Positions 42,001 through 62,002 of a stretch of DNA of 64,000 nt are shown here, in pieces; the first letter of the stretch is position 1, and every line of letters begins with the position of its first letter. The notes below the pieces were generated by a model. That model was not told the DNA's origin. It saw only the letters and a list, made by a program, of their open reading frames with translations, and made no database searches. The DNA comes from Anaerolineae bacterium (lineage in GTDB: Bacteria; Chloroflexota; Anaerolineae; Caldilineales; Caldilineaceae). Made by a program: the position numbers and the translations under genes. The stretch spans positions 124,001-188,000 of the forward strand of contig JAUIHI010000002.1 in the NCBI GenBank assembly GCA_030432295.1, read 5' to 3'.

Positions 42001-45000
42001 TATTGGTGAAAGTGCCGGAACCGATCACCCGGGCCGTGACAGTCAAGACCGCGCTGGCCCCATTGGACAGAGAGCCAACCGACCAGAGACCGGTGGTGGC
42101 GCTGTAGGAACCAGCGCTGGCAATCTCTCCCACCGAAGTGAGTTGTGCTGGCAACAGAGCATTCACCTGCACGGGGCTGGCGGTTTCCGGGCCATTGTTG
42201 GTAGCCGTCAACACAAAAGTCACCAGACTTTGCACGGCTGGCGTGAGCGCGGATGCACTGCTGATCAGCCCCACATCCGCGTTGAGCGGCACAGTGAAGG
42301 TGACAACCTGACCGTTGTTGAGGGGCGTCGGGTCGGTCTGGTCCAATGTCTGAAGCAGGGCCGTATTGGTAATCACCTGACCGGAAGCAGCCGCGCCCAA
42401 GCGGCCAGCGACAGTCATCGTCAACCTCTGGCCCGCGGCAATCCCACCCACTGTCCACAGACTGCTTGACTGGCTGTAGCTGCCCCGGTTGACGGTGACT
42501 GTAGGCGCGAGCAGTTGCCCCGGCAGAATATCGCTGATCACCACACCCGTGGCGTTGCTGGGGCCAAAGTTGTCCAGATTGACCGTATAGGTGATGGTTC
42601 CGCCCACATTCAGATTGGCGATGAGGGCGTTTTTCGTCACCTGTAGATCGGCCAATTGGCTGGCGTTGATTGTGGCCGTGGCACTGTTATCTGCCACCCG
42701 GTCCAGGGCCGACGAGGCGACAGTGGCCGTGTTCGTCAGTGTGCCGCTGGCCGCGGAATCGGCTGAGACGTCGATGCGCACAGTTTGGGTGATGCCTGCC
42801 GGAATATCGCCCAAAGCGCAGGTGACAACTCCCCCGGAATGGCCACAGGCCGAGCTATCGGGCAGAAGGCTGCTGGTATAGCTCAGACTGGCGGGCAGGG
42901 TATCGGTGAGCAGCACCGAGCGGGCCAGGGACGGGCCGTAGTTGGCAATACTCAGAATGTAGAAGAGGCTGTCCTGGCCTGCAACCACAGCATTCGTGCT
43001 GGCGGCTTTGACCAGTTTGAGGTCGGCCTCGTCGGTGATTGTTGTGGTAACTGTGGCGCTGTTGTTGATTGGGTCGGCATCAAAAATATTGGAGCCGACG
43101 CTGACCGTATTTGTGATCACACCCAGCGCACCGCTGTTGACCCGCACAGTCACAGTGACCGTCGAGTGCTCCTGGGGCAGCAAGCCGGTAATTGTACAGG
43201 AGACGACCAGTGAGCCGGTGCAATTCCCCAGGCTGGTGGCAAGCCCGGTGATGGCGACATCGGCGGGCAGGACGTCAGTCAGAACGACAGAAGGCGCAAC
43301 GGACGGGCCAAAGTTCGTCACGTCCAGAGTATAGGTGATGTTCGTACCGGCGACTGCCGCGCTGTGGCTGGCCCGCTTCTCCACATGCAGGTTGGCCTGC
43401 TGTACAACCACTGATGTCAGGCTGATCTCGTCGTTGTCAGAATTGCGGTCGGCGTTGGCTTCGGTCAGAGAACGTACATGCGCGGTAGTGGTGATCGGTC
43501 CGCTAACGGTTGGCGACACAGCACCGGTCACCGTGACAGTCACAATCTGGGTGCGGACCAAAGTGCCCAGATCGCACGTAAACATTCTGCCGAGGGTACA
43601 ACTTCCTGCCCCCTCCACCTGGGGTGGAGCGATGGCAGCCATCTCTGCAGGCAGCGTGACAGAAATCTGCACATTCTCGGCGGAGGATGGGCCAAAGTTT
43701 GTCACCCCATAGGCATAGGTGATTGGGCCACCCGCGGCCAAAGGAGCAGGCAGAGCGGCAGCGCTGATCGCCAGATCAAATTTTGTGTTGACCGAATTTG
43801 TGATACTGACGCTATTATTCAGCGGGCGAGGATCGGTCGTCAGCGCCGATGCCACCACCGCCTGGTTGACAATATCCAATTCCTCAAATGCGGCTACCCG
43901 TGTCCGAATTGTGGGGGTAAGCCACGTGCCCGGCAGCATATCGCCCAGGCTACAGACAAGCACTCCGCTTAGCGCCTCGCAGGAATCGCTGGAGACAAAG
44001 GCGATACCCGCGGGCAGGGTATCGGTCACCCGGACATTGTGAGCCAGGGAAGGGCCAGTGTTGGAAATAGCCAGGGAGTAGACAATATCTTCCCCCTGCA
44101 GGGCAGTATCGGGCGAGGCACTCTTGGCGATGCCCAAATCGGCCAGCGCGCTGACACTGGTAGTCAGGCTTTGGGTATTGTTGGTGGGGTTGCGGTCCAC
44201 TGTGGTCAGGCTGGAAGCAACCACCTGGGTGGTCAAATCGCCCAGTGCATCCACGCCGGTCTGCACTGTGGCCGTCATTGTACGGGACTCGCCTATCTCC
44301 AAGCGAGAGAAGGCGCAGGCAACGGTCTGGGCGTTGACCGAACAGGCACTGGCCGGTTCGATTGTATCCAAACGCAGGCCGCTGGGCAGGGCCGCCTGCA
44401 CCTGCACACCGCTGGCAATCGCCTGGTCCAGGTTGGAGACTGTCCAGACATAGACGATAGAATCGCCCGCGATGGCATTGGCAGGGCCAGGGTTGGCAGT
44501 CAACCCCAAGTCGCTGATCGAGCATTCAACCGTCGAGATGCCCCCTTCATCCTCATAGAAGAGAACCGTGCCGTTGCCGCTCAGAACAGGCGCGCCCACT
44601 TCGCCCCTGGTGGGGTCAGTGCGGCTGCGAAAGACCTGTCGGCTCTGGGCCACCCCGTCGTAGAGGACTACCCATTGGCTGCCTGTGCTATCCAACCGCT
44701 GGTAGATCACCCGATTGCCGTCGGCGCTGATATTGGGATCGAAGTTGTCGGCGCCGGGTGTATCGCTGAGCTGCGAGAAACCTGTGCCTGTGGCCGGATT
44801 GGGGCTGAGAAAAACCTGTCGCCCACCCACAATATTCACTGTGCTGTCCAGCCGCTGATCCGACACAAAGGCAACCTGAGAGCCGTTTTGGCTGACCACC
44901 GGCATCTCATTTGTCCCGCCGGATGTGCTGGTGACAGCCGTCATCAGTTCGCTATTGAGCACATAGCGAAAAATTTCCAGATTGCCTTCCGGGTTGGATA

Positions 45001-45763
45001 GGCTCTGGGTGGAGGCAAAAACCAATGTGGAGCCATCGCCGCTCAGGTCCGGGGTATCGTTGAGCACACCCAAGGGGGTCTGGGTGATCTGGCGAAAGCG
45101 GGTCGGCGTCACAGAGAGATCGGCCACATAGACTTCCAGATTGCGCTCTGCATCTGACACCGACCCGGCCGTAGCGGGGTCCAAAGCGTTGTCGGAAATA
45201 AAGGCAATCCAGCGTCCGTCGTCGCTGATAGATGGGTAGAGATTGGCCCCCTGGGTGGAGTTGGTGATCTGGCGGAGGGAAGGATTGTTCAGGTCCGACA
45301 GATCGGCCACAAATATCTCGAAGTTGCCGTCCGTATTGTCGAAACCGCTGCCAAAATAGTGGCGATCCGAGAAGAAGACCAGATACCTGCCATCCGCGCT
45401 GACATCCGGAGCCAGATTGAAGCCGCCCAGAATCGAACCTGTCGAATTTGTGATCTGCTTGAATGAGCGGGTGACGGAGCCGTCGGCATTGAAGCGCAGT
45501 TCGGATCGGAATAGCTCAATGTTGCCGTCCGCGTTCTTGCCGTTGCCTTCCAGATCACCTGTGGACCAGAAAAATATAACGTTGCCATTCCCAGTGCTGC
45601 TGGGACCTGCGCTATAGAAGACACTCTGCCCAGTGTTGATCAGCGATTGAGCGACTGTCGTCGTGCAGCGGATGCCCTCTTGGGCGCGCACAGGCGACGG
45701 GGAGAATACACCTGCCGTCAGGGCAAGCAAGAACGAAAGCAGAAGCAGGCCGCGCCGGGTCAT
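30044..45763 (-). CDS. Giant secreted DUF11/Ig-like repeat protein (5,239 residues)
   Basis: Single open frame of 15.7 kb. Parts in order: signal peptide (about 1-27, LLLLSFLLALTAGVFSPSPV); a PD40/TolB-like beta-propeller (about 30-413, with ISDDGRWIAFISDN-type blades); thirteen DUF11 repeats (about 414-2,034, marker TYTVxVxNxGPS); a block of about fifteen Ig-like repeats (about 2,037-3,780, marker QNLTITAQDxxGNTATSYTG); two invasin-like Big-1 domains (about 3,777-3,983); and nine further DUF11 repeats to the end, several nearly identical. The tail WRFFLPFLQ...IYLPAVSN has no LPXTG and no transmembrane helix. It is likely a long surface filament or adhesin. Its ATG overlaps the stop of the upstream gene (ATGA), indicating translational coupling. 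Family assignments are solid; the role is inferred. Confidence 0.9.
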   Translation of the reverse strand: MTRRGLLLLSFLLALTAGVFSPSPVRAQEGIRCTTTVAQSLINTGQSVFYSAGPSSTGNGNVIFFWSTGDLEGNGKNADGNIELFRSELRFNADGSVTRSFKQITNSTGSILGGFNLAPDVSADGRYLVFFSDRHYFGSGFDNTDGNFEIFVADLSDLNNPSLRQITNSTQGANLYPSISDDGRWIAFISDNALDPATAGSVSDAERNLEVYVADLSVTPTRFRQITQTPLGVLNDTPDLSGDGSTLVFASTQSLSNPEGNLEIFRYVLNSELMTAVTSTSGGTNEMPVVSQNGSQVAFVSDQRLDSTVNIVGGRQVFLSPNPATGTGFSQLSDTPGADNFDPNISADGNRVIYQRLDSTGSQWVVLYDGVAQSRQVFRSRTDPTRGEVGAPVLSGNGTVLFYEDEGGISTVECSISDLGLTANPGPANAIAGDSIVYVWTVSNLDQAIASGVQVQAALPSGLRLDTIEPASACSVNAQTVACAFSRLEIGESRTMTATVQTGVDALGDLTTQVVASSLTTVDRNPTNNTQSLTTSVSALADLGIAKSASPDTALQGEDIVYSLAISNTGPSLAHNVRVTDTLPAGIAFVSSDSCEALSGVLVCSLGDMLPGTWLTPTIRTRVAAFEELDIVNQAVVASALTTDPRPLNNSVSITNSVNTKFDLAISAAALPAPLAAGGPITYAYGVTNFGPSSAENVQISVTLPAEMAAIAPPQVEGAGSCTLGRMFTCDLGTLVRTQIVTVTVTGAVSPTVSGPITTTAHVRSLTEANADRNSDNDEISLTSVVVQQANLHVEKRASHSAAVAGTNITYTLDVTNFGPSVAPSVVLTDVLPADVAITGLATSLGNCTGSLVVSCTITGLLPQEHSTVTVTVRVNSGALGVITNTVSVGSNIFDADPINNSATVTTTITDEADLKLVKAASTNAVVAGQDSLFYILSIANYGPSLARSVLLTDTLPASLSYTSSLLPDSSACGHSGGVVTCALGDIPAGITQTVRIDVSADSAASGTLTNTATVASSALDRVADNSATATINASQLADLQVTKNALIANLNVGGTITYTVNLDNFGPSNATGVVISDILPGQLLAPTVTVNRGSYSQSSSLWTVGGIAAGQRLTMTVAGRLGAAASGQVITNTALLQTLDQTDPTPLNNGQVVTFTVPLNADVGLISSASALTPAVQSLVTFVLTATNNGPETASPVQVNALLPAQLTSVGEIASAGSYSATTGLWSVGSLSNGASAVLTVTARVIGSGTFTNTAIISAAQYDDNRGDNTSAIGLTVEPAADISLTNLASPSAPNVGDTLFFTVRVTNDGPDAVADVRVSDIPAAGSFITPAAGTTYSQTTGLWTIPSLGVGESTTLVISRALSLSGSVTNQAEIVAASLFDPDSTPGNGLGNGEDDQSSVVLTVPAASDLEVGMSASGGQLVGQDVLLPIQITNRGPDVATNIVVSETLPANLAFRTHFVQGAGTYLPATGVWTIPSLAVGEFTILNITARVEPGAAGQLLRDEIEGVRLDQYDPGRFSNSASVSFQVGGADLAITKSVDRASADVGGPVVYTVSVLNNGPSATTNVRITDSLPISLTGIISSTSAGAFGPNTPGSAGVWRIAELGVGASETLVLTGTVIPGTANQIITNTISSATSSVADGDTANNTAAIGFRVTSADLVLQKSTTITQPQEGDSFSFILNVTNLGPDTATGVVVTDTMATGITTTVAGAGYNIDTGRWDVGSISPGQSRSLILSVVPVAGVGGGLVIVDPIDGKSADQEDPTPAINSSARVTVTVVGADLALVKSASKTTPDVGETVSFTVTLTNPGPFATGAVVVTDTLPAGLTLVGSPTVSAGTVSMNGAGTVATWSHTSAPVGFTARLRITATVDSGTGGQSLVNRAAIVSAKQTDGSAMPDPNRVNNTATATVVSQATDLIVALVDSPDPVAAGETLTYSAVVTNSGSTAAAAPVVTFTLPSSVSLLSAASNCDTSGFPTLVCTSTSALAVNASRTFTAAVSNSAVTTLSASASVSTSTPETDTGNNSASASTDVDPATPAKLVITGSASQTAGSSQNLTITAYDSLGNLATGYAGDKALTFSGASTAPDGTLPSVEDKDAVAIAFGTATTVTFASGVASVSSGNGVLRLYAAETAEVAVTDGTISSSGSDNLTVVVGADAAVALAVGGASSETAGDSQDLTITAQDTYSNTATGYTGDKSLTFSGASTAPDGTIPTVTDKDGTAIGFGSSITLTFASGVAAASSGSNGSLTLYATETATVSASDGSIASTGAGDLPVTVGSGDATALVISGSATQTAGESQSLTITAQDAFSNTATSYTGSKTLTFSGATAAPDGTDPAVVNSSGVTVTFGSDTTLTFSSGVATASGGSNGEMTLYAAEAATVAVSDGTIGSTGAGNLAVTVASAASSRLVFTTQPSSSANAGGTFSQQPVVEVRDIFENVAGVSDEIVLAPFTNSSCSTAASGTLSGGGPLAASGGVAAFSTVSYNQVGTIRLQASDSTNSAVATACSGTVTVSAGLAGSLTVQTEPADSTAGAPLSTQPVVALRDNSGNIITSDSTSTVTAVVQNGPGGFHSSSSTSVAFSSGVASFSNLRLDTAGAYTLTFFTSAGAFTVTSASFAVSPGAVSKLALAGSASQVAGDTQNLTITAQDSAGNTVPGYTGSQSLTFSGAAAAPDGTLPSVSNSSGAAVNFGTPTAISFSNGVATVSGSSNGALRLVKVETAAVAITDTVNGIGTASGGGLAVVVTPGSAAKLVIGGSPTATAGITQTPTITAQDSVGNTATSYTGSRSLTFSGASSAANGAQPFVTNGSGTAINFGNTTSIIFSNGVATASGNSNGAMVLVKAETATISVTDNGGTNSAGGGDLAVTVSGNTAVKLAITGSATQTAGATQNLTITAKDIYSNTAASYTGSKTLTFSGASAAPNGSLPSVKSNGGAAISFGLPTTFTFSSGVATASGGNNGGLRLVQTGSALVSASDGTINSIGSGNLAVTVNPGTGTQLVIITEPDGAESQQFFVQPPVVELRDALGNRVTSDSSSLLTASVQSGPGTFHPNSVPQISFVAGVAEYTMLRLDIAGSYVLRFTQGGLTVDSASFEVTSSSISKFTITGSATQSVDSPQSVTITAKDSLGNTASAYSGSKSLIFALDTGTGTAPNGTNPTILDINNTPQAIGASTAITFVNGVATASLRLVRAESVVLSVSDGVASATGTDRLSVAVSAGAANNLAFGQQPGSPATAGLNFAPQPSVRLRDQFNNNTTGNNTVVLTAFTNSGCTTAAAGILGGGSGTPASSGVATFSGVNYTKAETIYLKATSGGLTAACSNAVAVSADVAAKLIIGGSATQTAGITQTLTITALDSFGNTATSYGGDRNLTFSGANSAPNGLPPTVADKTGSPIPFGTQTPITFSLGIATVSGSSNGALILRKAEVATVDVADGSINSTAGGGLTVTVSSAGPDNLIFTTQPSSGATAGAVFSQQPEVRIRDQFNNPTTSADTITLTPFTNAACTSAATGVLNGGSAVATSGAAAFSGLDYEKAETVYLKAADSTTGGVTTACSNSIVVGPAAAAKLVISGSGSQTAGTTQNLSISAQDNFGNLATSYDGAKTLVFSGASVALDGSEPTVKNNSGVATGFGTGTLIDFSSGNASVSAGNNGVMALYRAESATVSVTDTVNLIGSSGADDLAVIVSPTAHSAFAFGTVASPQTAGTQFNVSITAQDEFSNTVTSFVSPVSLTTNGGTITPTTSALFSGGLLTQPVTVTLAGAERIITATSGVITGASNSFAVNPGAASGATSTISASPTSITADGASTSTITVQLKDANGNDLTSGGAIVTLSETSGMLSSVTDNGDGSYTAILTSTTTVDVSTVTGTVGGSPIMDDVDVTFAPGAASGATSTISASPTSITADGMSTSVITVQLKDVNANNLTSGGATVTLSQTLGSLSSVTDNGDGIYTAILTSTTTAGVSTVTGTVGGSPITDDADVTFTPGALSKFAVTMSGGTTALSAVAKIAGATFNVRVTAQDANGNTVTSYTGNVSLTSNAFAGTVSANIGTGGFVDSISVTPTVVGSGDRTITTAQGGTTTTNASGTFAVNSAFAITKMATTNLVTAGQSITYTVRVTNTSGSTLSTVTLTDSLPVTVTGVTLSSSNWDSCMGSGVVVCTAGSLGVNANAILTVTGTVTPTALHNEQLVNNAQVSAADVSIVQIAQVTSTVQRSVALAITKSASPSPVLAGNQITYTVRIINDGPSDASGLVVTDTLPVSVTNPFSSTTGGALSCSGSISITCNLSTLSAGSSLTWTITGTVSASALNGSVITNTAGVKSAEVGIAQTALVTTTIQRSVALAITKSAYPSTVLAGQEITYTVRITNSGPSLASNVQLTDTLPTLSNVISSTTGGLICGGIGSLTCTLTSLAVDGSVTWTITGIVSANALSGSVITNTAGVKAAEVSVAQTALVTTTVQRSVALAITKSASPSPVLAASQITYTVRITNSGPSDASGLVVTDTLPVSVTNPISSTTGGVLNCSGSSSITCNLSTLSAGSSLTWTITGTVSASALNGSVITNTAGVKSAEVSIAQTALVTTTVQRSVALAITTSAYPSIVQAGSLITYTLRITNTGSNAATNLVVTDTLPLSVTNPISSTGGAMTCSGSSNLTCTVGSLGGGLGVTWTITGTVNAAAPNGLVITNTAGATSAEVSVAQTALVTTTVQRSVALAITKSAYPSIVQAGSLITYTLRITNTGFNAATNLVVTDTLPLSVTNPISSTTGGVPSCSGSSSITCNLSTLSAGSSLTWTITGTVSGNAPNGLVITNTAGVKATEVSVAQTALVTTTVQRSVALAITKSAYPSTVLAGNQITYTVRITNSGPNIASNLVVTDNLPALSNVISSTTGGVLSCSGSSSLTCNLPSLGVGSSLTWTITGTVSASALSGSVITNTAGVTATEVSIAQPALVTTTVNTLADLQITKSEVVTDTPVAGSTVTYTLSITNDGPSYARSVYITDTLPVSVSFGSVIGMTPSNFFGTAVTTTNTVSWMTDTLPTGSGLITFTGIITGSGELINSVVITSTTTDDTPDNNSVTTGGFNASGSSMATAMADLWLRARSASTAIALDEPAEFIFRAGNRGPREVVGATVVIQSDAEIAGRLLTDPIAICPRADSGIVCPLPLLMPGDEIDIAVTVPVAQQGSFASVWTIESSLFDPNPDDNFVEHRWLVGENEWRFFLPFLQSQTETERNRSDEVEIYLPAVSN
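30915..33145 (-). repeat. Six-unit tandem array of about 369 bp in the giant gene
   Basis: The anchor GACCGCTGTA occurs at 31281, 31653, 32022, 32394, 32760 and 33132, giving spacings of 372, 369, 372, 366 and 372 bp. All are multiples of three, so each unit encodes one 122-124-residue DUF11 domain. The units are visibly near-identical at the DNA level, unlike the older DUF11 repeats at the N-terminal side. Confidence 0.9.
33815..34430 (-). repeat. Exact 300-bp tandem duplication encoding two Big-1 domains
   Basis: The text GAGGTCAGGATGGCTGTGTA occurs at about 33,903 and again exactly 300 bp later. The units differ by few bases, and each encodes ATSTISASPTSITADG followed by SVTDNGDG. Recent duplication is the simplest reading. 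Confidence 0.88.
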
Positions 45764-50418: not shown

Positions 50419-53400
50419 CTAGCATCCCGGACTGAAATAGCTGGTCGGGCTGGGTCCAGTCTCCAGAGGATTGCCCCGGAAGTCGGTATAAGTAGCCACC
50501 ACAAAATAGGCCAGTCCACAGCCCGGCAGGGTGGGATCAGTAAAATTGGTCACCAGTGGTTCGGTCTCGGCCACGGCTGCGAAATTCAGATCGCTGGCAT
50601 TGGCTCGGTAGATACGGAATTTTTCAATTCGCTGCTGATCCTGGCCCGCATAGCTCCAGGTCAGCACATTCTGCCCGGTCCCACTCACACTGCCAGACAG
50701 ATTGAAGGGATTGGAGGGCGTCACTTCCTTGGCCGTAATCTTCACGCTGGCGCTACTTGTCTTGGCCGTGGCTGGATTGCCCGCAGGGTCATTGGTGGCG
50801 GTCAGCACAAATTCTGTAATTGTTCCGTCGTATTGGATTACCAACTCCCCTTCAAAGGGTCGGGTTCCAAAGTTGAGGGATTGGGTTCCCTTTCCTTCCA
50901 GCATCAGAGAAGTAGCCGTGTTGGCGGACCAGGAAACCTTGAGCAGCGCGCCAACCTCCACTTCGTATTGATTGGTCCCCGTCTGTTTCACCTCGTCCAG
51001 ATTCGATGGCGTGGCCCCACTCTGAGCGCCAAAGTAGACGATACTAGGGGCCGGCACGGCTGTGGGCGCAGGTGTGGGCGGTATGGGGGTAGCTGTGGCA
51101 GTAGCCGTGGGTGTAGGTTCCAGCGCGGTTACATCCACCTGGGCAGTCACACTCTTGTCCACATTCACTGCGGTCAGAATAAAGAATGTGGTCTCGTTGA
51201 CAGCTACCGGCAGACTGCCCGTTCGGGAGAATGAGGTATTCAGCGAGATATCCGGGCTGAAAAGCGTTACGCTGGTCACGTCGCCTTTGATCGACCAGGA
51301 AAGTGTAACCCGTTGGGATTCGCCCTGGACAACTTCCTTGGGGCTGGACTGGAAAAATTCAATCACAGGCGCGCCGGGCAGAGGCGTCGCCGTGGGCTGG
51401 GGTAGGACGGTCACACCGACTTCCTGGCTGAAAGCATCCCCGCCCAGGGTTGTCGCCCGCAGTAGATAGGTTGTGTTCTGCGCGGGGAAGACCTGGCGGC
51501 TGCCCTCCGGCGGCAACTCGGAACCGATGCCTTCGATACTCACCGAAGGCGCGCTCAGCACCCGCCACGTCACCTCGACCGGTTCTCCTGCCAAAACAGT
51601 GGTCGGCTGCACATCGAAGACCAGCACTTGCGGGTTCGGCAGAGGCGTGGGGGTGGGCGTCTGGACAATCACCGACGAACTGCTCTGGGCGGCAATCGGA
51701 TTTTCGACCGAGGGATTGCCCGCCTCAATGCGGAAGGTGGTATCCACCTTGGGTTCCACCACAATCGACCCAATAAATTGTTCTGTGGGCAGAGGCTGTG
51801 GATTGCCATTGGTATACAGAGTCGCCTTGTCGGCCCGCCCGACCTGCCAGGAGACAATCACATTTTCACCCAAGACAACTGTGTCCCGATCAACCGACAG
51901 TTGGATTTCCGGGCTGACAGGCGTCACAAAAACCTGCACCTGTCTGACGTCGGTAAAGAGAGGCGGAAGTCCAAGACGGCTGAGCAGATTTTGGGATGAC
52001 ACCTCATAGGTTGTGGAGCGCACAGGCATAACCACTGCGGTTCCGTAGGGCGCTGGCTCAAAATCGATTACACCTGGTGGGCTAAATGATACGGAGGCAA
52101 AGCGTGAGGCTTCCCATTCAAGAACCACAGGTGTGCCAGCCACAACCGCTTTGGGTTGGGCATCGAAGGTGTAGACAGCCGGTGAAAAACTGATCAATAA
52201 GGCAATAATAAAGAGCAGAATTGTGGAGAGGATCGCCCATTTGCCAATCAGTGGCCGGGCGACCAATTGGCCGGCAATCGTGCGGGGGAACTGCTGCCCG
52301 CCCAGGGGTGTGGCCGTAATTACAAACTGGTACGTTCGGTTGCGAAACCCAATCAGCCGCCGCTGGTGGGGTTCGATAAACATTGTGATTTCCTGGGCTT
52401 CGCTGGGAATCAAGCGAAGCTCGGCCTGCCGTGAAAAAGTCTGGTTTACATTGGGCAGAAAAAATTCAAATTCCAGGGTGCGCTCATCGTCTCGCCCCTC
52501 TACCTGCACCTGCACAATACTGTTCCCATTGTTGCCGATGGCAAAGTCGGATTCACTGATGGGATTGTTGTAGGTGGATTCCTGCTTCTTGCGGGACAGT
52601 TCGCCGATCACCACTTCGTTATAGACGTTTATGTGCAGGGCACAGCCAAGCTGGGTGTAGCGATCCGTATATTCCGGCGAGGTAATACTGATGGCGAGAT
52701 TATGGCGACCGGCAGTGCTGCTGGGCAGGCGGGGCGGGGTCAGGGTGATGGTGACGATCCCAGACTCTTCTTCATTCAAATTGATCTGAGCGGGCAGAAT
52801 CACCACCCAACTGGGATCACAGCCTTCCACCGCCACATTGAAACTGGAGACCAGATCGCCCCCATTGGTGATGGTCAGTTGCAGAGCCACCGTAGCATCC
52901 ACATCCGCCACGATCTCCCGGTCGGCCAGGCTCGCCAGGATCAGTTCATCCACGTGGTCCATCACCGGCGTCACAATCGGGGTGTAGGGCAGTGGCTCGG
53001 CATAGCCCCCACTGCCGCCAAAGCCGTTGGCAGGACCCGCCGGGAAGCCTGCCCCATATCCGTTCCCGTGTCCATGGCCGTTGCCGTTTCCACCCATCGC
53101 CGGGCCGCCGGGACCAGCGCCGATCACCGCCAGAGGAAAAGCGCCCCCATTCCGTTGGCTGGCATGACCGTTGCCATTGGGTCGGGGCGCAGTAGGCCGG
53201 GACGTAGAGGATGGGAGAGGTTGGGAACGGACAGTGGACGTCTCCACACGGGGCGCGGACGGCTGGCCCCCTGCGGTCGGTGGCACAAGAACACCGGGCA
53301 AAGGCCGCGCCCCAAATCCACCCCCGGCCCCGGACCCACCAGGCACTCCGTTGGCCCCGTTCTGCGTGCCCAGGAGCAAAATGACCGTATGCTGACCGAT

Positions 53401-53676
53401 CTCCACCGTGTCCCAATTGTTCAGGGGTGTGGGAATATTCCCCCCCACAGACTGGCCAGCCACGCTGGTCGCGCTCTGCCCGTCTACCACCAACAACTGA
53501 TAGGGCTGCCGCCGGTGATCGACCACGCAATGAAAAGAGGCCACCCCGTCTCCAGAAAGAACAATGTCATTCTCCGGGTGACCGCCGATATTTGTGATTC
53601 CCTTGTCCGGCGTCAGATCATAGAACTCTACGATCCCGTTCGGGCGGATGATTTCAAGTTGATCAGAGAAGGGCAC
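50419..53676 (-). CDS. FHA-domain protein with transmembrane helix and extracellular Ig-like domains
   Basis: Protein of 1,085 residues from GTG 53676. The N-terminal FHA domain (about 1-100; NIGGHPENDIVLSGDGVASFHC) would bind phosphothreonine peptides in the cytoplasm. A Gly/Pro/Asn-rich linker (about 105-225) leads to a beta-sandwich pair (about 230-480). One strong transmembrane helix (ILSTILLFIIALLISFSPAV, about 490) is followed by a series of Ig-like domains marked by 'VLEWEAS', 'IVSWQVG', 'EVTWRVL' and 'TLSWSIK', a Pro/Thr-rich linker (PTPTATATATPIPPTPAPTA) and a C-terminal fibronectin-III domain. It thus connects an intracellular phospho-reader to an extracellular arm. The start lacks a good ribosome-binding site. 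It lies between the VWA gene and the FG-GAP gene, same strand. Confidence 0.85.
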   Translation of the reverse strand: MPFSDQLEIIRPNGIVEFYDLTPDKGITNIGGHPENDIVLSGDGVASFHCVVDHRRQPYQLLVVDGQSATSVAGQSVGGNIPTPLNNWDTVEIGQHTVILLLGTQNGANGVPGGSGAGGGFGARPLPGVLVPPTAGGQPSAPRVETSTVRSQPLPSSTSRPTAPRPNGNGHASQRNGGAFPLAVIGAGPGGPAMGGNGNGHGHGNGYGAGFPAGPANGFGGSGGYAEPLPYTPIVTPVMDHVDELILASLADREIVADVDATVALQLTITNGGDLVSSFNVAVEGCDPSWVVILPAQINLNEEESGIVTITLTPPRLPSSTAGRHNLAISITSPEYTDRYTQLGCALHINVYNEVVIGELSRKKQESTYNNPISESDFAIGNNGNSIVQVQVEGRDDERTLEFEFFLPNVNQTFSRQAELRLIPSEAQEITMFIEPHQRRLIGFRNRTYQFVITATPLGGQQFPRTIAGQLVARPLIGKWAILSTILLFIIALLISFSPAVYTFDAQPKAVVAGTPVVLEWEASRFASVSFSPPGVIDFEPAPYGTAVVMPVRSTTYEVSSQNLLSRLGLPPLFTDVRQVQVFVTPVSPEIQLSVDRDTVVLGENVIVSWQVGRADKATLYTNGNPQPLPTEQFIGSIVVEPKVDTTFRIEAGNPSVENPIAAQSSSSVIVQTPTPTPLPNPQVLVFDVQPTTVLAGEPVEVTWRVLSAPSVSIEGIGSELPPEGSRQVFPAQNTTYLLRATTLGGDAFSQEVGVTVLPQPTATPLPGAPVIEFFQSSPKEVVQGESQRVTLSWSIKGDVTSVTLFSPDISLNTSFSRTGSLPVAVNETTFFILTAVNVDKSVTAQVDVTALEPTPTATATATPIPPTPAPTAVPAPSIVYFGAQSGATPSNLDEVKQTGTNQYEVEVGALLKVSWSANTATSLMLEGKGTQSLNFGTRPFEGELVIQYDGTITEFVLTATNDPAGNPATAKTSSASVKITAKEVTPSNPFNLSGSVSGTGQNVLTWSYAGQDQQRIEKFRIYRANASDLNFAAVAETEPLVTNFTDPTLPGCGLAYFVVATYTDFRGNPLETGPSPTSYFSPGC

Positions 53677-53688
53677 GGGTGGGTAGAC

Positions 53689-53790
53689 GATTGGTTGATT
53701 TTGGATTGGTTGAATAGTCGGTTAGGTGAATGGGTGCTATGCGACTGGTGGATAAAACGATCAATCAACCAGTCAATACTCAACCAATCC
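53689..53790. repeat. Dispersed GGATTGGTTGA hairpin at the VWA gene 3' end
   Basis: GGATTGGTTGA (53703-53713) / TCAACCAATCC (53780-53790) and TGGTTGATT (53692-53700) / AATCAACCA (53763-53771) are perfect inverted pairs. The stop codon of the VWA gene lies inside the right arm, so the element overlaps coding sequence. Similar TTGATTGG words occur at 15,720 and 23,210. Confidence 0.65.
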
Positions 53791-56595
53791 ACCCCAAATC
53801 TGTGAGCAGGAAAGTCAGCATAAAGAGGACGACCGCCGCGCTGCCCAGAACAATCAACAAAGGCAGCAACAGCCAGGAAAGCCAGGAACGCGCCCGGATG
53901 TCTACCGTCGCTTCGTGGATGACCAGAGGCATCTCTTCGGCCTCGATAGACTTGGATACAATACGGAAAGGCAGAGCCTTGCCCTTGCCTGGAGTGGTCG
54001 GCTCAATCACCAACTCCAAATAGAGGGTATCACCCGGCTCAACAGCCGGTGTCTCGGTCCAGGCGTCATCGATCTTGCGGGTCACCCGCTTGAAGGGCAT
54101 ACCGTCGGCATCGTAGCGGAGATCGGGCATGGCCGGGGGGCGTGCACCCATCCCCACATAGGGGCCGTGACCGTTGGTGCCGGGCGCAGACCCGGACCTG
54201 CGTCCAGACAGGGCCAAAGCCGTGCCGCCTACTGGTCCACGCGCAACCGGGGCGTCTGCCGTAGCTGCCGCCGTCGCAGGAGCAGGAGCCTGGGCTGGTG
54301 TCTTCTGCCCCGTTCCCATAACCTCTTCCATATGGGATGTCCCAAACCCCGCGGCCTGCGCCCGCTCCAAATCCCGCTGTTGGGCCGCGGTCAGTGGAAC
54401 TTGGGGTCCACTGGTGGCGTTCTGGATCTGCCCGACATTGCGCTGCACCCGCTCCACAGAGCGCACACTCCGATAGGTGCTCATCGACCCCTGTCCGGCC
54501 CGGCGCAAAGCCGCGCCACCCAGCGCATCGGGCAGGAAACCGCCCAGAGCATAGAGCAGACTGGCCCCGGACCCAGCCACCTCCGCCACTTTCGTGGTGG
54601 ACTCGCCTGCTTTCTTAAGTTTTGCCATACCAGCGCCAGCGCCTGCTTTGGCCTTGCCCAGCCCGGCACTGGCACTCTCCTTGGCAGAGCCAAGTCCCCC
54701 GCGCTGGTCGCCCGCTTGGGCTGGTTCGGCTGGCATGGCGGGGGCGGCCGCATAGACCATTTCGGCATTGGCCATCTCGGCCTCATCCATCTGGACCGTC
54801 TGGGCACGGAATTGCAGATTCTCCCACTCCTCCTGGGTCAGTGCAACCCAATCCCGCACCGTGCGCCCGGCCAGAGCCATGCCCTGGTGCAACAGGCTGA
54901 AACGCAGTCGCCCTTTGGGATCGTCGGCCCGCACCAGATAGGCGCTGGGGACATTGCCCTGATTGTCCAGGGCCAAAGTGAAGCGACGGCGGCGGCGGCG
55001 GCGGGAGAGAGCCGCCAGATAGACCAGCAGCAGCCAGGCCAGCACAACAGTCAGCACAGCAGCCAGCAGGGCCACAATGCGCAGCCAGGTCTCGGCTGTA
55101 AAGATAAAGCGGGGCGCGGCTGGCAGCAGGTCCAGAGAAAATTTGGTGTTCTTCAGATAGCCGTTGCGGTCGCTGACCTGAATGGCAAGAATGTGCTCGC
55201 CCTGGGCGTAGGACGCGCTGTCCAGCCGGAAGACAAAAGGCGGTTCGGTGCGTCGCTCCTGCATCGTGCCGTCCACCAGGAAATCCACCGCGCCCACCCC
55301 GGCCAGGGCTTCCACCTGCACAGTCACAACCACCTCATCCCCCACATAGACCTGGCTTCTGTCGATGGAAGCCTGCACCAGCAGCGGATCCACTACCCGC
55401 ACAGTGACGGATGTCTCGCCCACATTGCCTGCGCTGTCGGTAGCCCGCACACCCAACACGTGGCTGCCCTGCACAAGCCCGGTCGTATCCCAGGCATAGG
55501 CGTAGGGGGCATCCGGCAAAATGGCCACAGATTGACCGTCCACCAGATATTCCATCGAACGAATCGGTCCGGGTGCGTTGACACCGGGCACAAGATCAAC
55601 GATCCCGCCGACGGACTGACCGGCACTGAGGCCGGGCAACGAAACCTCCACTGTGCCCGGCTGGGCGATCAGCGAGACCTGACTGACTACAGGCTCCCCA
55701 ACCGTACTGCTCCCAATCGTTCCGCCACCCACCAGATTGAGGGAGATGGTATGCTCGCCAGCATCCGCGGGCAGCGTGGATGTGTAGCGTAGCTGGTAGC
55801 CCCGCTCGAAGAGAGACCCCAAAGCCAGCAGGCGCAAGCGCGCGGCAGTGGCTGTATCCGTGACAAAGGGCTTGGCTTTGATGCGCAGGCCATAGGCTTC
55901 CATAGCGGAAACGGGTTGGGACTTGGGGCTGTAGGCAAAGAGATAGAGGGGGATATCCACCTGATCGGCCCGGGAGTAGACATCGGCCAGAGGCAGGGAG
56001 TTGATATTTTCCACACTGTCGGTGACGATGACCACTGCACGGCGCTTGACAGTCGTCATCAGTTCGGCCCGGTTGATAGCTTCTACCGTCACCCGGTTGA
56101 GGGACGTATAGTTGCCCGCCACCGACAGCCGATCCACCGCGGCCAGCAACTCGGCCTGGCTGCCGGTGAGGGGTTGGGCCACATCCACCCGTCAAAGGTC
56201 AACAGCAGAGCCTGATCCCCGGTGCGCATCCGGCTGATGAGCGTGCGCAGGCCAGACTTAATCTCCTCCAGATCGGCAACTTCCGTGCTGCGATCCACCG
56301 CAAAGACCAGACCGATGGGCTGGCTCTCGTCCGGTTCCAGCACAATCGAGCCGGCGGGCACTTTGCGCCCATCTTCAAATATCTGAAAATCTGCCGCGGT
56401 TAGCTGGGGCAGGGGCACGCCCAGGTCATCCACCACCGCCAGGTCTATCACCACAGCGGGGAAGCCAGAGGCGTCCACACTATCAATGGCAATCCGGGAA
56501 GCGTCCTGTGCCTGGACCCGCCAAAGGACCAAGAACAGGCCAAGCCCCGCCAAGAGACTGGCACGCATCAATTGGTGTACTGTGTGTCTAGGCAT
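53780..56595 (-). pseudogene. VWA-domain membrane protein, interrupted by a one-base frameshift
   Basis: Two overlapping frames make one protein of about 938 residues. The first (56089-56595) has a signal peptide and the VWA start: VFAVDRSTEV is the MIDAS region (DxSxS-like but with Thr), ending LLLTFDG. The second (53780-56188) continues directly with VDVAQPLTGSQAELLAAVDR. At GACGGGTGGATG one extra G in the G-run would rejoin them perfectly as TFDG-VDVAQP. After VWA come Ig-like domains (about 270-470), a transmembrane helix (LLAAVLTVVLAWLLLVYLAAL), a basic RRRRRRR patch, a long cytoplasmic region with low complexity, and a second transmembrane helix at the C-terminus. It is either a real frameshift mutation or a sequencing error in the homopolymer. 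Confidence 0.8.
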
Positions 56596-56673: not shown

Positions 56674-57384
56674 TTAGACGTCTGCCAGAGTCAGGCGGAT
56701 GGCATGGCTATGGAAGGGATTAATCCGGATCGATTGGGTGGCAACCGCACTTTCGCCAGGGTAGGCATCGGGAGCGGTAGCCCGCACCGTCACAGCCCGA
56801 GGCCCTGCCGAAATGCCCGACTCTTTGGCGTGGCGGATTTGCAGCAGCACATCCTTCTGCGCGCCGGGAAAGAGGATGGGGCCGGGTCCCAGCGCGTACC
56901 ATTCGGGGGTCAGTCCCTCAATGGCGAGTTTGAACTGTGCGCCGGGCACAGTGCCCAAATTCTGAACAGTGATAATCCCGTCCAACAACGAATCTGTGGT
57001 AAGCCGGGTATCACTCAATTGCAGGCTGACACTGATGGAGGTAGAGGTGCCTTCGCGCATGACAAAATGGAAGGTATGCTCGCCGATGCGCACCACATCC
57101 CTGTCATAGATGTCGGTGGCTCCTCTGGGCGGCAACACCCGTGTGCCTCCATCCATAGGAATGGGCAACTGGCTCAGATTGACCAGGCGATAGCTGCGGC
57201 TGCCAGCCGTGGCTATCAATTGGGCGTGCCGGGCTTCGATACCCGCGCCCCGTCCTCCTTCCAGAACAATGTCGTTGCGACTGTCGCTGCCGATGTGCAG
57301 GATCGCTCTGTTCAGAGGATATTCTTTGCGCCATCCTTCCCGATCGATCACTTCAACTCGATTGCGGGTCTCCCGTGTATTCAT
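56674..57384 (-). CDS. FHA-domain protein
   Basis: Protein of 236 residues from ATG 57384. An FHA domain occupies about 10-110 with the key Gly-Ser-x-x-Asn pattern ILHIGSDSRNDIVLEGGRGA and the His of IEARHAQLI. A beta-sandwich domain follows (about 115-236), similar to the one after the FHA domain in the longer FHA protein of this block. It has no signal peptide or membrane helix, so it is cytoplasmic. In injection systems and type VI secretion, FHA proteins relay threonine phosphorylation to the apparatus. Here it is the first gene after an internal promoter and leads the VWA/FHA-Ig/FG-GAP/giant block. No kinase gene is visible in the window. Confidence 0.85.
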   Translation of the reverse strand: MNTRETRNRVEVIDREGWRKEYPLNRAILHIGSDSRNDIVLEGGRGAGIEARHAQLIATAGSRSYRLVNLSQLPIPMDGGTRVLPPRGATDIYDRDVVRIGEHTFHFVMREGTSTSISVSLQLSDTRLTTDSLLDGIITVQNLGTVPGAQFKLAIEGLTPEWYALGPGPILFPGAQKDVLLQIRHAKESGISAGPRAVTVRATAPDAYPGESAVATQSIRINPFHSHAIRLTLADV

Positions 57385-57434
57385 AGGCACAGACCTTTAG
57401 GGATAGCTATTGGTAAAAGAGGGCTTTGGATAGC

Positions 57435-57547: not shown

Positions 57548-59203
57548 TTATGCGACGAGCAGCCCACTATTGGCGATCTGAGCCAGTGTCTCAACCACCT
57601 GCTCGGAGAGAGGGACCACCGGCAATTCGACTTGCGGATCGTCGGAAGCAGAGACCGGGGGTTGACGCCAAATCGAGCCACGCTCCGAATCGTCCGCGGC
57701 AATCAGATGACACAAATCATCTGCGGTGCGGGTCCCATCTAGCAGGGGCAGAAGGTAGTGGCAATGGGGGGTCAAAGCCACCCGGCGCAGACGCAAATCC
57801 GTGACGGTTGTCCTTTTCCCCGCTTCCCAACGTGCCCAGGGACTTGCCAGAGGACGGGGGGCAACCTCGGCAGTGTAGGAACCGGCGTGGCTATGCAGCG
57901 AGACCAATTCCCCGCTGGTGCAATAGGCTTGCAGCAGATTGCTGGCCAGAAGCCATCGATCCTCCCGCTGCCGTTCCGGATCAGCCCCAGTCAGAGCCGC
58001 ATAGAGTTCCGCCCGCAGATGGGGGTTCGTCTCCATTAGCTCAGTATAGGCCATCTCCAACAACTGATTCAGAGTTGCCCTGGCCGGCCAGATAGACTTC
58101 AGACAGGTCATTCCGACAATTGTGACCGGGTGATCACTGAGCAGCTTGGCCCCGTCGCCAGAGACAAACTCCACGGATGCCGCCTCCGGGTCTGCGCCCT
58201 CGGCCAGCAGCCCCTGGGCGTGGGCCGAAAAGTAGAGCGTGTCCAGCACATCCATCTCAATCGCCGGAGTCAGCGCAACTTCCTTGTGGCAGAGCAGAGA
58301 GCGGCGGAAGGTGCGGTTGACCACAAAGTCCAGATATTGGCCGCTGTCGCCACTCTTCCCGTTGGTCTGGGCCAGGGCCAACAGATTGGCCGATGTTTCG
58401 TCGGTCAAGCCAGAAGGCAGTCCGGTGCTAAACTCGGCATCGGCCACATAGGCCAGTTCGTGCTGCTCGGCGTGTGCCAGAAACTCGTGGAAATAGCAGG
58501 GATCGTTCACCACCTCCAACTCGTCGTGGAGAAACAGGGAATCGGCCCGTTCGGGCATATTCAGAATGCCGTGATAGTAGCCGTTGAGCAACTGCTCGTA
58601 GGCCGCCGGATAGGAGCTAAGCCGGTAGGAAGCCGCACCTGTGGCCTGGACCAGAAAGCCGATCAGTTCCTTGGCCGCCGCGGCCCGCTGGGCTGGCTCC
58701 GCAATCTCCCGGATGTGATAGAGCATCATCCGGCGCATGGACTCCATCATATGCCAGCCCGGATAAGTGTTGTAGCTGATGTAGGCCACGCCCTTGGGGG
58801 CCAATGCACTGCGGCAAAGGACAAGGAGCGCATCCCGCACTGGGGAGGGAACCCAGGAGTAGATGCCGTGGGCAATAATATAATCGAACTGGCCCAGGCT
58901 GCCGTCCCAGTCTGTCAGGTCCTGGTGGAGCATTTCCACATTGGGCACATCCAAATGGGCGGCAATTTCGCGCCCCTCGTCGATCTGCCGGGAGGATGCG
59001 TCGATCCCCACAAGCTCAGCGTTGGGCAGAGAAAACGCCATCGGAATCAGATTGTATCCAGCCGCGCAGCCGATCTCCAACACCCGGCACGTCTCGACGG
59101 GTGCGGTCGCCAGCCCCCGCAGACGGGCCACAGTCGCCAGCACATCCGGGTGGGTGAAGGCATAGGACCAGCCGCCGTAGGGGACCAGATCGTAGGAGGT
59201 CAT
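57548..59203 (-). CDS. Methyltransferase with regulatory domain, copy 2
   Basis: Protein of 551 residues from ATG 59203, 4 nt after the stop of the upstream paralogue. The N-terminal class I SAM-binding domain (about 30-210) shows CRVLEIGCAAGYNLIPMAF, the acidic VGIDASSRQ and IIAHGIYSWVPSPVRDALLV. A methyltransferase-regulatory domain (PF10119-like) and a beta-rich C-terminal part follow, with FRRSLLCHKEV and DHPVTIVGM shared with copy 1. Substrate is unknown; neighbours suggest modification of a component or cargo of the tail-like system, but that is inference. It is the last gene before the internal promoter. Confidence 0.85.
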   Translation of the reverse strand: MTSYDLVPYGGWSYAFTHPDVLATVARLRGLATAPVETCRVLEIGCAAGYNLIPMAFSLPNAELVGIDASSRQIDEGREIAAHLDVPNVEMLHQDLTDWDGSLGQFDYIIAHGIYSWVPSPVRDALLVLCRSALAPKGVAYISYNTYPGWHMMESMRRMMLYHIREIAEPAQRAAAAKELIGFLVQATGAASYRLSSYPAAYEQLLNGYYHGILNMPERADSLFLHDELEVVNDPCYFHEFLAHAEQHELAYVADAEFSTGLPSGLTDETSANLLALAQTNGKSGDSGQYLDFVVNRTFRRSLLCHKEVALTPAIEMDVLDTLYFSAHAQGLLAEGADPEAASVEFVSGDGAKLLSDHPVTIVGMTCLKSIWPARATLNQLLEMAYTELMETNPHLRAELYAALTGADPERQREDRWLLASNLLQAYCTSGELVSLHSHAGSYTAEVAPRPLASPWARWEAGKRTTVTDLRLRRVALTPHCHYLLPLLDGTRTADDLCHLIAADDSERGSIWRQPPVSASDDPQVELPVVPLSEQVVETLAQIANSGLLVA

Positions 59204-59207
59204 CGGT

Positions 59208-60854
59208 TCAACCTTCCAACAGAGCGGCCATGGCAAACCATTCGACCCGATCCCGTACAATCTTTTTCACTTGGGCCAGGGCTGGCGTCGTCCCGGGTGG
59301 GGAGCCGTCCTCCTGCTTCAAATGCCAGTGGCCTTCACCCAGCGGCCCGCCGATCAGCTCCTGGGCGAGATCGTCCAGGCCGCGGCTGCCATCCAAACGC
59401 AGCAGCAGAAAGCAGTCTGGCTCGTCCAGCAGCACCCGCTTGTGGAGCAGATTGCAGATGCTGCGGCTGTTCTGGCGCACCTGCCAGCGCGCCCAGCGGC
59501 TGGCAACCGGGCGGGCAGAGACTTCCGTTGTCAATTGGGGGGCGTAGCGGTGCAGTTCCATCAACACCGGGCTGACAGAGTATGCCTTCAGCAGATTGGC
59601 CCCCAACCCCTGCGCATCCGCTGCATCGCTCTTTGCGGTCTTTGTCGGTTTACCAGTCCGACCGACGCGACGGGTAGCCTCTTGCAACAGATCGTCAAAG
59701 CGAATCCGCTGCGGCCATATTTCACTCAAATAGTCGAAAGCCGCTATCGTCACCGGGTGGTCGGTGGTCAGGGAGGAGCCATCCGGGGCAATATATTTCC
59801 GAGCGGGGCGGCTGCCACTGGGCCGCTCCACCTCTTCGTCCCTGGCATTGGACGAAATGTAGAGAGATTGGAGCGTCCGCAGGGATGGTTTGCCTGTAAT
59901 CTGCACGGACTGATGGCAGACTAGCGAACGACGAAACATCCGGTTGCGCACAAAGTCCAGATATTGCTCAGCCTCCACCCGGCTGCGAGCCGAACTCTGA
60001 ATCACCTGGGCCACATTGGCCGGGACGTTCGTCGCCATCATACTGGCAAATTCGGTGTCGCCCACATATTGCAGACCCGCGGCTTCGCAATTGTCCACAA
60101 ACTCGCGCAGGTAGAAGGGCCGGTTGACCTCCTCCAATTCGTCGTGGAGCAGACCCGCATTCGAGCGCCCGGCCTCGTCGCCCAGATGCTCTTTATAGTC
60201 GTAGATAAGCTGTCGATAGGCTTTGTAGAAACCGCTGTAGGGGACAGTGCGGGCTTCGCCGGTCTCGGCCAGCAGGTCGATCCAGCGCCGGGCCTCGTTC
60301 GCCCGCTCCTGGGGCTTTTCGATGCGCCCGGCGTGAAAGAGCATCCCATCCCGCAGCGCGTTCATAAAATGGCCGCCGGGGTAGGCGTTGTAACTGATGT
60401 AGCCGATACCGTTGGGCCGCAGCAGACGGCTGTAGACGGCCAGCAGCCTATCCCGCACAGGCTGGGGAACCCAGGAATAGAAGCCGTGGGCGATAATGTA
60501 GTCGAATTGCCCCAGCGAGTCGTCCAGGGCCATCAGGTCCAGAGCGTGGAGCGAGACATTGGAGAGACCCAATTCGGCGATGGCCCGGTGGCCCTCTTCG
60601 ATCTGCACCGGCGCAAAATCGATCCCCACAAACTCGCTTGCGGGCAGATTGACCGCCATTGCCAGCAGATTGTAGCCCTGAGCACAGCCGATCTCCAGCA
60701 CCCGGCAATTTTCGATGGGCGCGGGGTCCATCCCCATCAGTGCGCCGACAGTGGCGAGAAGGCTGGGATGGGTTTCCGAATGGGTGAGACCGTCGTAGGG
60801 CACTTCGTCGTAGCTGACGGTCAGGTCGGGCGCGTGCTCGGCTTGCCAACTCAT
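59208..60854 (-). CDS. Methyltransferase with regulatory domain, copy 1
   Basis: Protein of 548 residues from ATG 60854, which overlaps the DUF4159 stop (ATGA) and has GGAGG upstream. SAM motif I is CRVLEIGCAQGYNLLAMAV, then VGIDFAPVQ, IIAHGFYSWVPQPVRDRLL and YISYNAYPGGHFMNALRDGM. The regulatory domain carries FRRSLVCHQSVQITG and DHPVTIAAF. It is clearly a tandem paralogue of the next gene with diverged linkers (a short basic TKTAKSDAADAQG insertion here). Translational coupling to the tail-like genes implies a role with them. Substrate is not known. Confidence 0.87.
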   Translation of the reverse strand: MSWQAEHAPDLTVSYDEVPYDGLTHSETHPSLLATVGALMGMDPAPIENCRVLEIGCAQGYNLLAMAVNLPASEFVGIDFAPVQIEEGHRAIAELGLSNVSLHALDLMALDDSLGQFDYIIAHGFYSWVPQPVRDRLLAVYSRLLRPNGIGYISYNAYPGGHFMNALRDGMLFHAGRIEKPQERANEARRWIDLLAETGEARTVPYSGFYKAYRQLIYDYKEHLGDEAGRSNAGLLHDELEEVNRPFYLREFVDNCEAAGLQYVGDTEFASMMATNVPANVAQVIQSSARSRVEAEQYLDFVRNRMFRRSLVCHQSVQITGKPSLRTLQSLYISSNARDEEVERPSGSRPARKYIAPDGSSLTTDHPVTIAAFDYLSEIWPQRIRFDDLLQEATRRVGRTGKPTKTAKSDAADAQGLGANLLKAYSVSPVLMELHRYAPQLTTEVSARPVASRWARWQVRQNSRSICNLLHKRVLLDEPDCFLLLRLDGSRGLDDLAQELIGGPLGEGHWHLKQEDGSPPGTTPALAQVKKIVRDRVEWFAMAALLEG

Positions 60855-62002
60855 CGGCTGCCTCCGCCTGCGCGGCGCTGCCAGGCATAAAGGAGCAGAT
60901 TGTGCCCCCACTCCATCCCCGCCCGAATCTCTTCCCGGGTGGCTGCGCCGCCGCGGCGATCCCCCTGCCAGAGACAGCCGTAATCCCCCGTAGAAACAAC
61001 GACACCGCCCCCGGCCCGCAGGTCCGGTGTGCCCTGATTTTCGTAGCCATCCGCGGGCTGGGCAAAGAAGAAGGGTTCCGAGAGCAGGGCCTCGTGGCGC
61101 TTGACCATCTGGGGTTTGCTGCCCAACACACTGATCAGATTGGCGAAGGAGTCGTCGGAGGCAGGTTTCGCCCCCCCTTCCCGGTGGCAGCTTTCCACAA
61201 AGATCGTGCCACCCTTGCGCACAAATTCCCGCAGATTGTTGACCTCAGCCACGTCCAAATCAAAGGTCGCCTTTGCCACTAGACAGAGAAGGGTGTAGTC
61301 GGTCAGATCACCGGCCAGGTCCACGCCGTCGTTGACCAGCACCCGCATCTCCGGCTGCATACTCACGCTGCGGGCCAGATGGGCCATCCCCCGACTGTGG
61401 CTGGGATCGTCCAGGGGTGACAGATTGGCGATGCCCACCAGCACTGTGGAGCGGGCCAGGGGAGCCACCTCTGGGCGGAAACGCAGATCGATCTCATTGA
61501 CGCCGGGCCGGTAGAAGTCGGTGGCGTTGTGGATGGGATCGTTGTGGCCCCGGCGCAGGATGCGGGCCAGTTCCACCTGGGGCGTGTCCGGGCGATCCAC
61601 CACAGTTTCTACGCTGTAACCGGTGTAGACAAAGAAGGGGTTATCGCCGTACTGGCCGTTCTGGGGCTGGGGGCGGGTCTCGTCGTAGGTCAAGAGCAGA
61701 TGGAGCGTGCCGTCCCGGTAGCGGCCCATATCGTAGGCCGCGTGCTGCTCCACAATTATCAGATTCCCGGCGGGATCGATGGCCGCGCCGGGCAGGATGT
61801 AGACGGTCTGGCTGGCTGGTTCCCCGGCGATGACCTCCAGCCCGGCCAGAATGCCTGTGCCGTGGCCGTTGAGTGCGTGCATCCGCTGCTGGTAGCGGTG
61901 GTATTCGTGGGCCTCTTGCCAAATATCAGCGGTGACAGTCATGCCGTCGAAGGCGCTGATGCGTCGGCCCGGGTTGTGGCGGAGGAGGGAAGCTAGGGTC
62001 AT
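60851..62002 (-). CDS. DUF4159-containing protein linked to tail-like genes
   Basis: Protein of 383 residues. The N-terminal half (about 1-190) starts with RRISAFDGMTVTADIWQEAH and YHRYQQRMHALNGHGTGILA, a pattern of proteins found next to phage-like baseplate genes, and is beta-rich. The second half (about 205-375) is DUF4159: LTDYTLLCLVAKATFDLDVA, NNLREFVRKGGTIFVESCHR and a late WGHNLLLYAW. DUF4159 has a glutamine-amidotransferase-like flavodoxin fold of unknown role. There is no signal peptide. It lies 30 bp after the tail protein I-like gene and overlaps the methyltransferase start, so it belongs to this operon. Exact function is unknown. Confidence 0.8.
   Translation of the reverse strand: MTLASLLRHNPGRRISAFDGMTVTADIWQEAHEYHRYQQRMHALNGHGTGILAGLEVIAGEPASQTVYILPGAAIDPAGNLIIVEQHAAYDMGRYRDGTLHLLLTYDETRPQPQNGQYGDNPFFVYTGYSVETVVDRPDTPQVELARILRRGHNDPIHNATDFYRPGVNEIDLRFRPEVAPLARSTVLVGIANLSPLDDPSHSRGMAHLARSVSMQPEMRVLVNDGVDLAGDLTDYTLLCLVAKATFDLDVAEVNNLREFVRKGGTIFVESCHREGGAKPASDDSFANLISVLGSKPQMVKRHEALLSEPFFFAQPADGYENQGTPDLRAGGGVVVSTGDYGCLWQGDRRGGAATREEIRAGMEWGHNLLLYAWQRRAGGGSR

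Follow-up and report, generated by a model that had tools for sequence, protein, structure and literature searches.

In the window, the whole 64,000-nucleotide stretch of DNA analysed here, a gene for a VWA-domain protein lies in two overlapping frames, which raises the question of whether the gene has been broken by mutation, is intact in the cell and broken in the deposited sequence, or is expressed through some form of recoding or splitting. A sequence-only reading of the locus had put the break down to one missing G in a short G-run, with no residues lost, and had offered a very recent event, an assembly error, or programmed or phase-variable slippage as its origin.

The break in the VWA gene

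Open reading frame analysis placed two long overlapping frames on the minus strand which meet at 56186–56196, inside the VWA domain, and comparison with related genomes, a check that the sequence-only reading had proposed, confirmed the break as a feature of the sequence: one open frame runs through the site and spans both parts in all eight relatives aligned, four of them congeners. The N-terminal fragment (56089–56595, minus strand; 168 codons) carries the first half of the VWA domain and, by eye, a hydrophobic N-terminus; its residues 1–135, ending in TFD, are in the native frame and share 69–79% identity with the congeners, and its final 33 residues are out of frame. The C-terminal remainder (53780–56188, minus strand; 802 codons in the other frame) carries the second half of the VWA domain, Big_7 Ig domains and, again by eye, hydrophobic stretches. 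It aligns with the proteins of the relatives from VDVAQP, where the N-terminal part leaves off, at 69–71% identity to four congeners (in G002 it covers the first 498 residues only). In the frame of the remainder, a stop at 56194 is followed by the first start codon, a GTG, at 56188, so that the change of frame is confined to a few bases; no further stop occurs in 802 codons.

At the break site itself (56186–56196, minus strand) the window has 8 bases from the Phe codon up to the Val codon, whilst the DNA alignment has 12 at this position in all ten rows of relatives. These rows come from eight distinct genomes (G001, G002, G004, G005, G020, G025, G038 and G048), L003 and L031 being the same gene, as are L005 and L032; more distant matches such as G027 and G047 were left out. 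When the G005 protein was compared with the window copy by tblastn the net shift was also −4. The Phe and Val codons are TTT and GTG in four congeners, and other codons are used in some distant relatives. As the window copy is 4 bases short of all eight relatives, at least one codon has been lost besides the shift of frame. The sequence-only reading was thus close on where homology ends (at TFDG in its account, at TFD, residue 135, in the alignment) and right on where it resumes (VDVAQP), but not in holding that no residues were lost, and the addition of one G does not account for the shortfall; the G-run at the site consists of three bases (GGG). A single 4-base deletion would be the simplest account of these alignments, with a 3-base plus a 1-base loss as the alternative.

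The intact gene has approximately 945 codons in the congeners (stop-to-stop frames of 945–950 amino acids in G001, G004 and G005), and the G002 frame, also open across the site, is cut off by its contig end before the gene is complete. Within its own genome the C-terminal part had one match at E 0.001, which was itself, and a search of viral contigs gave 0 matches.

Protein domains cut by the break

In the relatives, VWA_2 (PF13519) was found at residues 107–195 (L031), 113–210 (L002) and 105–202 (L006), passing the gathering score of Pfam in two of the three relatives scanned (36.6 bits in L002 and 39.6 bits in L006) and lying just below it in L031 (25.1 bits against the 27 needed). TIGR03436 (acidobact_VWFA) matched L031, the only intact relative scanned, over residues 48–226 with 49 bits against a cut-off of 81.25. 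The likeness to TIGR03436 and VWA_2 proteins consists in the matches of L031 to both families; the differences are that L031 scores under both cut-offs, that Big_7 Ig domains come after the VWA domain in the relatives, and that the window copy is broken. The break maps to L031 residues 136–139, within both the VWA_2 and the TIGR03436 match, and neither window fragment alone matches a VWA family at E 0.001. Structure prediction for the N-terminal region of L031/L032 was poor (mean pLDDT 42.5) and was set aside, and a search of solved structures gave three matches, all to the Ig region. The product of the intact gene is a VWA–Ig protein that is probably exported and anchored in the membrane, export and anchoring being judged by eye from the sequence.

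Recoding, phase variation and gene splitting

Long open frames on either side of a break, with a GTG start codon at the restart, could be taken as signs of a programmed frameshift or a phase-variable switch, in which slippage by ribosomes or during replication would restore the full protein in some cells. The continuous frame in all eight relatives aligned, however, means that there is no conserved frameshift, and programmed frameshifts are recognised by a split frame conserved in relatives together with an in-frame slippery heptamer, whereas a scan of the N-terminal frame found no heptamer of the form X_XXY_YYZ. A phase-variable locus would be marked at its break by a repeat or homopolymer that varies in length; here there is GGG only, and no homopolymer of 5 bases or more occurs in the 301 bases scanned for such runs around the site. 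By eye, no purine-rich ribosome-binding sequence precedes the GTG at 56188. With a shortfall of 4 bases and not 1 in addition, slippage of either kind, as put forward by the sequence-only reading, is very improbable.

We give still less credence to a true split into two working genes, with the C-terminal part translated from the GTG at 56188 or from a later start. In favour of a split, the frame of that part is clean for its 802 codons and 69–73% identical to congeners, but the cut falls within the VWA domain, so that the part starts mid-domain without the hydrophobic N-terminus, and none of the eight relatives aligned is split in such a way.

A probable young pseudogene

Small frameshifting deletions form bacterial pseudogenes, and the window copy is like these in lacking a few bases at one place while being open elsewhere, with two frames where all eight relatives aligned have one continuous frame; it differs only in the particular gene concerned and in that a related genome has a second, different interruption (see below). 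We therefore consider that the gene is probably a young pseudogene which arose via a recent inactivating deletion, a case of ordinary gene decay and not a new mechanism. Midway through the VWA domain, a small deletion (net 4 bases, lost in one event or as 3 bases and 1 base separately) would shift the frame. Translation from the native start would then give 135 native residues followed by 33 out-of-frame residues, and the remaining 802 codons would lack the N-terminus as well as half of the VWA fold. Given a cut inside the VWA domain, it is likely that no functional protein results.

The age of the break was approached with a rate test, which gave no excess of amino-acid changes on the window branch for either part: nine of the ten comparisons had chi2 values of 2.57 or less, and the tenth, with a chi2 of 5.56, pointed to fewer changes on the window branch and used as outgroup L003, a sequence that groups with the window copy in the tree of that part. 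This is consistent with a break that is either recent or not real, and the result fits both. The suggestion of a very recent event made by the sequence-only reading agrees with it, as both halves are otherwise open.

Assembly error or mutation

An open C-terminal part and an unaccelerated branch are also to be expected of an intact gene that has been wrongly assembled. The main rival of the pseudogene is a local assembly or consensus error, by which a gene that is whole in the cell came out a few bases short in the deposited sequence, as might happen on the merging of strain variants. Besides halves that are otherwise open and not accelerated, such an error would suit the continuous frame in four congeners (the G002 contig runs out before the end of the gene).

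The frequency of frame breaks was surveyed by reciprocal tblastn of 1.215 Mb of this genome and 1.475 Mb of the congener G005, keeping non-redundant matches of at least 60 amino acids and at least 50% identity. For this genome there were 90 matches from 87 distinct query frames (37,524 aligned amino acids) with one frame break, that of the VWA gene, and for G005 there were 94 matches from 91 query frames (35,893 amino acids) with none, so that the sampled assembly is not generally ridden with indels. These counts followed a stricter rule (identity of at least 45%, best-scoring non-overlapping matches), which retained one of nine raw candidate breaks in this genome and none of five in G005. By eye, the other eight candidates in this genome were antisense or shadow frames or gene boundaries; two of the five in G005 lay in regions inspected by eye and the others were removed by the rule alone. 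A generally indel-rich assembly thus finds no support in the 87 and 91 query frames surveyed, and a homopolymer miscall as the simple cause is ruled out by the 4-base shortfall.

The same evidence bears on a local error. The shortfall is 4 bases outside a homopolymer and not a change in the length of one, the 86 further query frames in this genome contain no other break, the site lies approximately 180 kb inside a contig of 434,813 bases, and the copy in the related genome G006 is interrupted as well. An assembly error, the second origin offered by the sequence-only reading, is accordingly possible but rather unlikely, and we infer that the deletion is present in the cell and not merely in the assembly.

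The neighbouring locus

The VWA gene is flanked by two FHA-domain proteins with intact open frames, one upstream (56674–57390, minus strand) and one of 1085 amino acids downstream (50419–53676, minus strand). Beyond the upstream neighbour, on the same strand as the VWA gene, lie genes like those of contractile injection systems or phage tails (57548–63998, minus strand), which comprise two methyltransferase-type genes, a weak match to CIS13, a tail protein I gene that matches CIS12 weakly, and a TIGR02243 baseplate gene present by its 3' end. The resemblance to contractile injection system loci lies in neighbours on the same strand that score above the cut-offs of TIGR02243, TIGR02242 and TIGR01634; the differences are that the CIS12 and CIS13 matches are far below their cut-offs (107.6 of 860 bits and 43.2 of 370 bits, respectively) and that the VWA gene is placed here as a neighbour of the locus. 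By these profile matches, the locus beside the VWA gene is of contractile-injection type. The FHA protein was found in 13 of 13 genomes searched and TIGR02243 in 11 of 13 (it was missed in G002 and G004), counts which do not amount to a survey because the 13 are the genome of the window, six congeners and six others picked for their VWA matches.

The two methyltransferase proteins (window 57548–60911, minus strand) are in tandem and carry regulatory (PF10119) and PKMT winged-helix domains, and G005 has frames matching them in the same order.

A second interruption in a related genome

By its neighbouring genes, G006 looks to be the closest relative of the window genome: its upstream FHA neighbour is 92% identical to that of the window, the highest among 12 relatives (the other five congeners are at 83% or less), and its downstream gene is 84% identical (at most 76% in the four other congeners searched). 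The N-terminal part of the VWA gene does not set it apart in this way, being no closer to the window in G006 (79%) than in G002 (79%). The VWA gene of G006 matches over residues 1–112 and then stops sharply, and the 136 bases from there to the contig end (L172:1–136, at the end of contig C33) are repeated sequence: counting this place itself, G006 has 22 matches to them, 18 at 100% and four at 80%, and the six other genomes searched, that of the window among them, have none. In the 13 loci read, the same nine bases precede the repeated sequence, which stops within 3 bases of the locus end. It may represent one terminus of a multicopy mobile element.

The C-terminal part was not found in G006 even at E 10. 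The G006 contig with the downstream gene starts at about residue 32 of that gene and not in repeated sequence, so that what is missing of the VWA gene may be on a short contig that was left unbinned, and G006 accordingly shows an interruption and not a proven loss. This genome is, moreover, listed with 7% contamination, and a junction at a contig end could be an assembly artefact. The G006 gene is apparently interrupted by a separate insertion, independent of the deletion in the window, and, provided that the junction is genuine, both genomes have the gene interrupted, in different places and by different means. Because the copy in the seemingly closest relative is also interrupted, and differently, this lineage seems able to do without the VWA gene.

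That two related genomes carry different interruptions is a modest hint that this gene beside a contractile-injection-type locus is easily lost. Active selection against keeping the VWA protein in the clade, for instance because it serves the neighbouring injection-type system at the surface or in assembly and its loss would alter targeting or resistance, is improbable; were it so, repeated independent knock-outs, by a small deletion here and by an insertion in G006, would mark an arms-race locus. In annotation, a single disrupted gene describes the two open frames better than two proteins or a recoding event would, and the break is of little importance beyond this.

G003 was uninformative, as neither part of the VWA gene was found in it at E 0.001; the downstream gene is truncated there, beginning at base 1 of a contig. 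Elsewhere on the minus strand of the window, a single frame of 5239 codons (30044–45763) lies downstream of same-strand PKD and FG-GAP repeat proteins.
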